The notes beneath the pieces were generated by a model. That model saw only the letters and a list, made by a program, of their open reading frames with translations, was not told where the DNA came from and searched no databases. Shown piece after piece: positions 31,125 through 36,638 of a stretch of DNA of 64,000 nt; positions within the stretch are counted from its first letter, which is position 1, and the number at the start of each line of letters is the position of its first letter. The position numbers and the translations under genes are program-made. The stretch comes from Aminicella lysinilytica (GTDB taxonomy: Bacteria; Bacillota; Clostridia; Peptostreptococcales; Anaerovoracaceae), in NCBI RefSeq assembly GCF_004362975.1, contig NZ_SNXO01000005.1, positions 1 to 64,000 of the forward strand, read 5' to 3'.

Positions 31125-32237
31125 TCAGTTTATTCTTACTGGAAGCACCAGATACTCGAATTTATCACCTTCAATAGGCTCTATGAGACAAGGAGTTATT
31201 CCTGTATTGAAGAATAATTTGATTTCTTCATCGTCAATAGCTTTTAGAATGTCCAGTACATACTGAGCATTGAATCCTATTACCAGATCTTCTCCTTCTT
31301 TTTCCGTCAGGATCTCTTCTTTTACATTTCCTTCTTCGGAATTTGAAGTAATAGTCATTATATTATCCTTCAGATCTATCTTAATAAGATTGTTTTTCCC
31401 TGCTTTAGACAATAGTGAAGCTCTTTCGATGCTCTCCATAAAGTTTGCTCTGTTGACTTTAGCGGTTATTTTACTATCCTTAGGCAAAATATCCTTGTAA
31501 TTAATAAATTCACCATCTATTAATTTCAATTCTGCTTGTATATTATCAAACTTGAATATTACTTTCTTTTCACTTAACAGCATTTTACCATTTTCTTCAT
31601 CGCTGTCAGTTTCTCCGATTATTCTACTGATCTCACTTATTATCTTAGCAGAAATAATTATATTACCTGGATTAGTACTTACCTTAGCTTTTCTGTTTAT
31701 AGCCATTCTATAACCGTCAATAGCAACCATATTCATCTGGTCTGGTGTCAGTTCTATCAGTACTCCTGTAATTACTCCTCTGGATTCATCATTGCTTGCA
31801 GCAAAAGATGTCTTATCTATCATTTTCCTGAGTTCAGACTTATTAAAATCTATGGCTTCAGTTTCTTCACTTACCATATTCACATTAGGGAACTCATCTG
31901 TAGACATTCCTATGATTTTAAATTCTGAATTCATGCATTTAATAGTTACATTATTTTCATCGTCGCTTTCTATGTTTATTTCTACAGATGGCAATTTTCT
32001 AATAATGTCACCAAAAAGTTTAGCCATTACTATAATAGCTCCTGGCTCAGTAGTATTTACATCTATAGTATCCTGAATAGAAATATCAAGATCTGATGCT
32101 GACATAGTCAGTTTTCCTTCTGATGTTACTTCCAGCATTATCCCTTTTAGAATAGGTATAGTACTTCTTGATGTTACAGCTTTAGAGACTACATTAAGAG
32201 CCTTGGTAAGCTTTTGCTGTTCGCATGAAAATTTCAT
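31125..32237 (-). CDS. dnaN: DNA polymerase III beta subunit (sliding clamp)
   Basis: DnaN is the ring-shaped processivity clamp. The 370-residue protein has the family start (MKFSCEQQKLTKALNVVSKA) and end (KFEYLVLPVRIN). An in-frame TTG at 32258 lies upstream, but the ATG at 32237 has GGAGG at a good distance and matches the usual N-terminus, so it is chosen. The 164-base gap to dnaA carries the origin unwinding element. Confidence 0.97.
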   Translation of the reverse strand: MKFSCEQQKLTKALNVVSKAVTSRSTIPILKGIMLEVTSEGKLTMSASDLDISIQDTIDVNTTEPGAIIVMAKLFGDIIRKLPSVEINIESDDENNVTIKCMNSEFKIIGMSTDEFPNVNMVSEETEAIDFNKSELRKMIDKTSFAASNDESRGVITGVLIELTPDQMNMVAIDGYRMAINRKAKVSTNPGNIIISAKIISEISRIIGETDSDEENGKMLLSEKKVIFKFDNIQAELKLIDGEFINYKDILPKDSKITAKVNRANFMESIERASLLSKAGKNNLIKIDLKDNIMTITSNSEEGNVKEEILTEKEGEDLVIGFNAQYVLDILKAIDDEEIKLFFNTGITPCLIEPIEGDKFEYLVLPVRIN

Positions 32238-32277
32238 TTTTATACCTCCGGATGTCAATATTTTTAATATATATTTG

Positions 32278-32317
32278 TAGTAGTAGTAGTAGTAGGGGCT
32301 GTGGAAACTGTGGATAA
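32278..32317 (+). other. oriC: Origin unwinding element: six TAG trios, GC block and two DnaA boxes
   Basis: Six perfect TAG triplets (32278-32295) are followed by GGGC, then two abutting boxes TGTGGAAAC (32300-32308) and TGTGGATAA (32309-32317; exact consensus). Read 3' to 5' from the boxes, this is box, GC-rich block, then GAT repeats, the layout described for the DnaA-trio element of Bacillus subtilis. AT-rich sequence follows on the trio side (about 32255-32277). Confidence 0.85.
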
Positions 32318-32362: not shown

Positions 32363-32401
32363 TGTGGAAAACTCTTAAAAGTTATTATAATATTGTCCAC
32401 A
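32363..32401. other. Further DnaA-box-like sites in the dnaA-dnaN gap
   Basis: TGTGGAAAA (32363-32371) and TTGTCCACA (32393-32401) each differ by one base from the DnaA box consensus. With the unwinding element they make the gap a dense box cluster. Confidence 0.65.
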
Positions 32402-33757
32402 TCATTCATTGATCTCATCTTTCAGAGATTTAATGATCTCTTTAAATGAGCTGTCCTTACTTATGTCTTTTTGTATTTTATCACAGGCATGCATTACCGT
32501 GGTGTAATGTCTGCCTCCAAACATACTTCCTATTTTCGGCAATGAGTAATCTGTCATTGTTCTGCAAAGATACATTGCTATCTGTCTTGGAAAAGCTATA
32601 TTATTAGTTCTTTTCGGAGATTCCATTTCTGAAACCTTAATTTTATAATGCCTGCTGACAACAGCCTTGATTTTCTCTGGAGTGATGACAGAACCATCAT
32701 CTTGTATTATATCATTAAGTATATCACTTGCGAACTTTTTATCTATATGTTCATGCAATAATGATGAAAAAGTTACTATTCTGTTGAAAGCGCCTTCCAG
32801 TTCTCTGATATTATCTGTGACCTTCTCTGCAATCAGACATATTACGTCATAGAGATCGTCATCCATTGAAATATTGGCGTTTTCAGCTTTCTTGACCAGA
32901 ATAGCGATTCTGGTTTCATAATCAGCGGGGCTGATACTTGCTATCATATTCCAGGCGAATCTGTTGCGGAGCCTTTCCTCCAGTCTCACCAGTTTATTAG
33001 GCGGACGGTCACTGGAAATCACTATCTGTTTATTAAGGTCGTATAAGGTATTGAAGGTGTAGAAAAATTCTTCCTGTGTCGTTTCCTTACCTTCCAGAAA
33101 TTGAATATCATCTATAAGCAAAACATCGACCTGTCTGTATTTCTTCTTAAATTCTCTGGTTTTATTATCTCCAAGAGCTTTTATGAGTTCGTTGGTGAAC
33201 ATTTCTGAAGAAACATACAGGACATTGATATTATCATTATGTTCAAGCAGGTAAATTCCGATGGCATGCATCAGGTGAGTCTTACCAAGTCCCGAGTCTC
33301 CGTAGATAAACAAAGGGTTATATGCTTCTGATGGAGATTCTGCCACGGCAAGGGCTGCTGCGTGTGCATACTTATTACTGTTTCCTACAACAAAATTATC
33401 AAAGTTGTACCGCGGGTTGAATATCTTCTGTTTATTAAGGTTAGGCGTTACTGTTGAAGTGCTTACTTTTACCGGCTTAATGACAGTAGTATCCTTCTTA
33501 TATTCCTCAGAATTCTTGATTATAACTCTGTAATCATCTTTCAAGACTGTTTTAAAACTTGTCTCGATCAACTGAAGATACCGGGTTTTCAGTATGTTAA
33601 TAATGAAATCCTCATTGGATTCCAAATAAACTATATTTACATCCTCATCTATAGACCTGATCTTAGTTGGTAGAAACCATGTCTTGTAGCTGATGGGTGT
33701 GGTGTTCTTTTCAATTTCTGCTAATACTTTTTCCCAAGTTTTCTGATCGTTATTCAT
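32402..33757 (-). CDS. dnaA: Chromosomal replication initiator DnaA
   Basis: DnaA binds the origin boxes and opens the DNA for helicase loading. The 451-residue protein has the N-terminal interaction domain (ending near residue 75), then AAA+ with Walker A GDSGLGKTHLMHAIG and Walker B VDVLLIDDIQFLEGKE. The C-terminal DNA-binding domain contains the signature MFGGRHYTTVMHACDKI. It starts the dnaA-dnaN-recF operon. The promoter overlaps a DnaA-box-like site, which suggests autoregulation. Confidence 0.99.
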   Translation of the reverse strand: MNNDQKTWEKVLAEIEKNTTPISYKTWFLPTKIRSIDEDVNIVYLESNEDFIINILKTRYLQLIETSFKTVLKDDYRVIIKNSEEYKKDTTVIKPVKVSTSTVTPNLNKQKIFNPRYNFDNFVVGNSNKYAHAAALAVAESPSEAYNPLFIYGDSGLGKTHLMHAIGIYLLEHNDNINVLYVSSEMFTNELIKALGDNKTREFKKKYRQVDVLLIDDIQFLEGKETTQEEFFYTFNTLYDLNKQIVISSDRPPNKLVRLEERLRNRFAWNMIASISPADYETRIAILVKKAENANISMDDDLYDVICLIAEKVTDNIRELEGAFNRIVTFSSLLHEHIDKKFASDILNDIIQDDGSVITPEKIKAVVSRHYKIKVSEMESPKRTNNIAFPRQIAMYLCRTMTDYSLPKIGSMFGGRHYTTVMHACDKIQKDISKDSSFKEIIKSLKDEINE

Positions 33758-33784: not shown

Positions 33785-33813
33785 ATTTTACCTAATAAGT
33801 TATCCATATACAA
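33785..33813 (-). promoter_or_regulatory. Predicted dnaA promoter overlapping a DnaA-box-like site
   Basis: TTGTAT (33808-33813) and TAAAAT (33785-33790) on the minus strand are 17 bases apart. The spacer holds TTATCCATA (33800-33808), one base from the DnaA box consensus. Confidence 0.6.
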
Positions 33814-33885
33814 GAGGTAATTTTTTTCTTTGAGAAATAAATAGATAGAGAAGTTATCCACATCATGTTGATAACATTGTTCACA
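33800..33885. other. oriC: DnaA-box cluster upstream of dnaA (second origin part)
   Basis: TTATCCACA (33854-33862; exact), TTATCCATA (33800-33808) and TTGTTCACA (33877-33885) lie within 90 bases. Boxes on both sides of dnaA indicate a bipartite origin like that of Bacillus. The remainder of this 237-base gap is AT-rich with two promoters. Confidence 0.75.
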
Positions 33886-35906: not shown

Positions 35907-36638
35907 ATGAATTTTTTTGGAATTTTGGCTCAGCCTTTGGCTTGGCTTATGACATGGTTGTATAGCCTGATCGGTAGTTATGGTATTACCGTCGTTGTTA
36001 TTACAATCGTTGTCAAAGGTTTCCTGTATCCTTTTTACAAGAAACAGATCCTGTCTACTTCGGGTATGACAGATCTCCAGCCGAAAATGCAGGCCATACA
36101 GCGTAAGTACGCTAACGATAAAGAAACTATGAATGAAAAAGTCGCTGAGCTATATAAAGAGGAAGGCGTTAATCCTTTAGCTGGTTGCCTGCCTATGGTA
36201 GTTCAGATGATCATCATCATGGGTCTTTTCACTTTGTTGCGTTATCCACTGAACTATGTTCATTCAGAGCAGATGTATATAGCTGTTCATGAGAGTTTTC
36301 TGTGGATAAACGATCTGGCTCAGCCGGATCCATGGATATTACCTATCCTGTCCGGAGTCGCAACCTTTATTTCATTCTATATGTCATCACAGAACGGCGG
36401 AATGCCGGGACAGACTGCTAATAGCGGTAATGCAATGATGAATGTTATGAAATACGGATTTCCTATAATGATAATCTGGCTCGCTAAGACCTATGCTGCC
36501 GGCCTGGCAACATATTGGTTCATAAGTCAGTTCATACAGATTTTCTACAATATTCGTTTCAATCAGCTGCGAAAGAAAATGGCTGAAGAGAAAATGAATA
36601 AAAAGAAGAAAAAAGTAAGAACTGTTGGAGGAAAATAA
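35907..36638 (+). CDS. yidC: Membrane protein insertase YidC/OxaA
   Basis: YidC inserts and folds membrane proteins alone or with the Sec translocon. The 243-residue Gram-positive-type protein has about five membrane helices; the conserved hydrophilic-groove arginine is not obvious, and the first loop is rich in lysine (FYKKQILSTSGMTDLQPKMQ). No lipoprotein cysteine is seen at the N-terminus. The basic tail (KKMAEEKMNKKKKKVRTVGG) is typical and may contact ribosomes. The stop is directly followed by jag. Confidence 0.96.
   Translation: MNFFGILAQPLAWLMTWLYSLIGSYGITVVVITIVVKGFLYPFYKKQILSTSGMTDLQPKMQAIQRKYANDKETMNEKVAELYKEEGVNPLAGCLPMVVQMIIIMGLFTLLRYPLNYVHSEQMYIAVHESFLWINDLAQPDPWILPILSGVATFISFYMSSQNGGMPGQTANSGNAMMNVMKYGFPIMIIWLAKTYAAGLATYWFISQFIQIFYNIRFNQLRKKMAEEKMNKKKKKVRTVGGK

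Follow-up and report, generated by a model that had tools for sequence, protein, structure and literature searches.

Does a perfectly regular run of six TAG units in the dnaA-dnaN gap of Aminicella lysinilytica mark an unusual replication origin or an ordinary one? The window, by which we mean the whole stretch of DNA analysed (64,000 nucleotides, positions 1 to 64,000 of contig NZ_SNXO01000005.1), had been read beforehand from its letters alone, and that sequence-only reading described six error-free TAG units followed by GGGC and a pair of abutting DnaA boxes in the gap, a description that is exact in both coordinates and sequence. The features of the region, in window coordinates, are as follows.

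31125-32237, minus strand: dnaN (ORF list, domain match, start re-read)
32238-32277, no strand assigned: AT-rich stretch between trios and dnaN, 22.5% GC (composition)
32278-32295, plus strand: six DnaA-trios, TAGTAGTAGTAGTAGTAG, that is (TAG)6, or 3'-GAT-5' six times away from the boxes (sequence reading)
32296-32299, plus strand: GC-rich spacer GGGC, GCCC on the minus strand (sequence reading)
32300-32308, minus strand: proximal DnaA box GTTTCCACA (plus strand TGTGGAAAC), two mismatches against TTATCCACA (box scan)
32309-32317, minus strand: distal DnaA box TTATCCACA (plus strand TGTGGATAA), perfect (box scan)
32363-32371, minus strand: additional DnaA box TTTTCCACA, one mismatch (box scan)
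32393-32401, plus strand: additional DnaA box TTGTCCACA, one mismatch (box scan)
32402-33757, minus strand: dnaA (ORF list, domain and structure matches)
33800-33874, no single strand: box cluster upstream of dnaA, with boxes at 33800-33808 (plus, one mismatch), 33854-33862 (plus, perfect) and 33866-33874 (minus, one mismatch) (box scan)

Read on the minus strand in the dnaA-to-dnaN direction, the order is TTATCCACA-GTTTCCACA-GCCC-(CTA)6, followed by the AT-rich stretch and the start of dnaN, and the gap of 164 bases houses the trios, the spacer, and both abutting boxes. The array is the sole perfect trinucleotide run of at least six units within the window, where a dinucleotide shuffle yields on average 0.04 matches to the (TAG)6 18-mer at three mismatches or fewer, and (CTA)6 is unique in the genome assembly (2.29 Mb, 91 contigs). 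The window has no Rfam match at gathering thresholds. The dnaN start is likely the ATG at 32237, behind GGAGG; the mechanical ORF list picks the TTG at 32258.

We conclude that the element is almost certainly an ordinary, near-consensus basal unwinding system (BUS) of the chromosomal origin, which would act by tandem-box binding, trio capture and opening toward the AT-rich stretch, its perfection carrying no demonstrated extra function. BUS elements are predicted in 1755 of 2070 species, with 3'-GAT-5' the most frequent trio, and are recognized by a DnaA box or tandem boxes at most 16 bp from the trios (PMC8287927); here tandem abutting boxes stand behind a 4-nt spacer. A BUS also calls for three or more 3'-NAN-5' trios on the proper strand and a place in the chromosomal origin region; the element has six 3'-GAT-5' and lies in the dnaA-dnaN gap, at the local skew minimum. 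The two mismatches of the proximal box from consensus count against this reading. Its anatomy, the conserved six-trio length and spacing, the skew, and the conserved trio-reading residues of DnaA come from direct analysis. The window DnaA aligns along its length to the chain in BUS structure 8BTG (E 1.7e-130), and, among the trio-contact residues named in PMC10721633 and matched here by reading the alignment, Asn187, Ile190, Lys222, Glu223, and Glu228 are kept. Ile193 becomes Leu and Arg202 becomes Lys, so that of the trio-reading ISM residues Asn187, Ile190, and Glu228 are retained and the two substitutions are conservative.

DnaA binding, oligomerization, and opening at the window site would follow the published work on B. 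subtilis and C. difficile. The helix-turn-helix domain of DnaA would settle on the two tandem boxes, from which an ATP-DnaA oligomer would grow over the GC-rich spacer to the strand with the six 3'-GAT-5' trios. Adjacent protomers would hold the leading two bases of every trio between them, as in the B. subtilis structure, where seven DnaA protomers are reported on six trios with two bases per trio captured between neighbors (PMC10721633). The duplex would then open toward the AT-rich stretch before dnaN (32238-32277), which is likely opened together with the trios.

Binding strength at the window boxes is not assured, because this clade's DnaA carries His-Tyr (HY) at two box-contact positions where most DnaA proteins have Asp-His (DH): H417-Y418 of the window protein match E. 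coli D433 and H434 in the box-reading helix. Among 279 loci with a readable motif (some genomes repeated), HY occurs in 44 and DH in 226; HY is found in 39 of the 100 family loci counted and in one locus outside the family (L266). HY loci retain TTATCCACA, and its A variant TTATCAACA (TTWTCAACA, C-to-A at box position 6) is rarer in them. With four HH family loci and L165 left out and kinship ignored, we counted 7 A and 56 C boxes in 39 HY loci vs. 40 A and 83 C boxes in 57 DH loci (Fisher p 0.0013), and, again ignoring kinship, the A variant is present in 6/39 HY loci vs. 29/57 DH loci (p 0.0005). The reported site of action of D433 is box position 7 (PMC8235120) and not 6, which argues against a simple contact explanation. 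A literature search on box-contact residues under three-letter residue names returned nothing on point.

The B. subtilis incC BUS (DnaA-box#6/7 plus DnaA-trios; PMC6669920, PMC10721633, 8BTG) is one of the closest comparisons, with two tandem boxes, a GC-rich spacer, and six same-strand trios in the dnaA-dnaN gap, and trio-reading DnaA residues that are largely common to both species. The proposed likeness in order and polarity holds up: strand, order, spacing, and GC-rich spacer all agree with the published system, in which the trios likewise run away from the boxes (PMC6669920). The two differ in box number (seven in the B. subtilis region, four with at most two mismatches in the window gap) and in uniformity, since trio 3 of B. 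subtilis is 3'-AA-5' (PMC10721633), whereas all six in the window are 3'-GAT-5'. C. difficile oriC2 (PMC7561715) resembles the window in being part of a bipartite origin around dnaA, with boxes then trios in the dnaA-dnaN gap; its reported array is CTACTACTATTACTACTA, with TTA as trio 4 where the window has CTA.

To place the array among its relatives, we surveyed 237 regions upstream of dnaN from the genus, family, order, and class, gathered regardless of trios. Removal of 7 duplicates left 230 distinct regions, 23 of which fell below the top score of 200 shuffled regions (the first 200 on the list), and a further 5 of the remaining 207 had fewer than 5 NTN trios, giving 202 arrays under a score that adds 0.1 per trio for C at the first position and so has a slight CTA bias. 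Class regions were drawn from the best PF00712 scorers and sample a minority of 391 genomes; the family sample covers about 100 of 241 genomes with a DnaN match. The survey excludes the loci picked by pattern (L049-L101) as well as L031, which duplicates the position of L002. Elsewhere in the phylum, outside the class, 68 loci were scored and 51 counted, with near-identical L305 and L306 left unmerged. The box-spacer-trio architecture is found in 202 of the 230 distinct dnaN-anchored class origins and in 51 of the 68 from other classes.

Judged by these sequences, the window array is near the class consensus in every part, since six trios are the norm in the 202 arrays, the distance from the proximal box end to the first trio is 4 nt in 177 of them, and the commonest spacer is GCCC (43 arrays), the same as in the window. 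The suggestion that the regular array may allow an unusually long DnaA filament finds no support here: the array has no more trios than related origins, and a seventh triplet fits NTN in just 23% of the 202. An unusually long array is ruled out on the same grounds. A DnaN search of public genome contigs returned one relative, 71% identical; the closest relative by DnaN in the survey is L002 (71% identical), with the array CTA-CTA-CTA-ATA-CTA-CTA.

Could the perfection itself be a functional specialization, with uniform trios lengthening or tightening the DnaA filament and strengthening the origin? We consider this very unlikely. The preferred dinucleotide is 3'-GA-5', a B. subtilis origin with 3'-AA-5' throughout is impaired (PMC10721633), and pure arrays recur in several families: pure six-CTA arrays make up 8 of the 202 (the window, L123, L129, L170, L244, L205, L259, and L283) and span five families. 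Yet the array has the usual six trios, and independent shuffling of columns predicts 11.4 pure arrays (range 6-17), so that the observed number shows neither clear enrichment nor clear depletion. Purity is also not conserved within the genus, where comparison bears out conservation of the array itself (14 of 16 loci have a usable array, with at least 5/6 NTN trios) and does not bear out conservation of its regularity, the window alone being pure (1/14) and its relatives deviating mostly at trio 4 or 5. The perfect state would be one or two base changes from common neighbors, which is the simplest account. The same simple test lends no support to selection against pure repeats.

In one engineered B. 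subtilis origin, every one of the six trios is 3'-GA-5', giving it a uniform captured dinucleotide like that of the window; it is laboratory-made, whereas the window array is natural and has T at every third place as well. That origin is functional, and no gain is reported for it in the section cited (PMC10721633), so a uniform GAT array should function, with no known advantage. Regularity has no known added function, and a special role for it is not supported. Like the window, the other seven pure (CTA)6 origins combine box, spacer, (CTA)6 and AT-rich flank; they belong to other genera and 5 of the 7 to other families (L123 and L129 share the window's family), and their boxes and flanks differ. 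A separate pattern scan for a box plus at least five CTA matched 15 of 391 class genomes (the window's among them) and found none with the reversed pattern; one of its loci, L053, had no dnaN detected on the locus. Six-CTA arrays occur in ten further genomes (families labelled f25, f49, f50, f67, and f70).

A less probable alternative, which we regard as very unlikely, puts the main opening site upstream of dnaA and makes the gap element secondary. Further boxes had been placed upstream of dnaA, and they are present at 33800-33874. A GC-skew switch had been anticipated at about 32-34 kb; within the window, the cumulative skew minimum does lie in the 32-34 kb bin, and in 500-base bins the skew passes through zero at about 33 to 34 kb and stays positive from about 34 kb, a local measure in a genome split over 91 contigs. 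The genes rnpA, yidC, and jag lie on the plus strand, dnaN and dnaA on the minus. The skew locates the origin here, and its bins cross zero closer to 33-34 kb than to 32.3 kb, which favors the upstream site; the zero is, however, too coarse to resolve 1 kb. Moreover, a reading by eye of the region upstream of dnaA reveals no trio array, and opening in C. difficile was mapped to oriC2 in the dnaA-dnaN gap, beside CTACTACTATTACTACTA, with no clear trio described in oriC1 (PMC7561715). By analogy with C. difficile and B. subtilis, the upstream cluster would be the second half of a bipartite origin that opens at the BUS in the gap.

Two further observations concern the upstream flank. A perfect DnaA box, TGTGGATAA, lies at 36301-36309 (plus strand) within yidC, about 2.4 kb from the upstream cluster. 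A gene for a PTS EIIC-type membrane protein (PF13303; 33923-35071, plus strand) sits between the cluster and rnpA, where rpmH would be expected beside dnaA.

That the array is a neutral microsatellite born of replication slippage and unrelated to DnaA has a negligible chance of being right: its trinucleotide repeat is perfect and has no second copy in the genome, but its position, strand, phase, spacer, and six-unit length agree with the arrays of relatives, whose interruptions mean that they did not begin as a pure run.

We further find that the interruptions in the BUS arrays of the survey concentrate at one position. Trio 4 is CTA in 26% of the 202 class arrays, against 60-89% at other positions; averaged over 40 families, the sole handling of kinship here, the values are 27% vs. 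53-79%, and in the 51 arrays from other classes of the phylum 29% vs. 51-71%. It is the most variable trio by far, and in some arrays its central base is changed (TAA). Interruption at trio 4 occurs in 57 of 65 arrays whose other five trios are CTA vs. 92 of 137 (Fisher p 0.0019), a result on which we do not lean because related genomes are not independent. The exception named for B. subtilis is trio 3 (PMC10721633), so the weak position is not universal. We found no mention of a weak fourth trio in main-text parts of the cited BUS papers, and the supplementary figures of PMC8287927 may show it; a literature search on interruption or slippage of trios gave nothing on point. That BUS arrays across the phylum are built 3 + 1 + 2, with the fourth trio a selected weak point, is a tentative and unlikely proposal.

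The window adds one more, near-consensus member to the known BUS class, and its array would be useful as the natural equivalent of the all-GA origin engineered in B. subtilis. Across the survey, the array length is constant at six trios, matching seven DnaA protomers, and a weak fourth trio recurs. If selection does maintain this trio as a weak point, it might set the pace of the DnaA filament, interrupt it, or stop the repeat from slipping, and a pure array like that of A. lysinilytica would be a natural variant lacking the break, with a measurable change in initiation.
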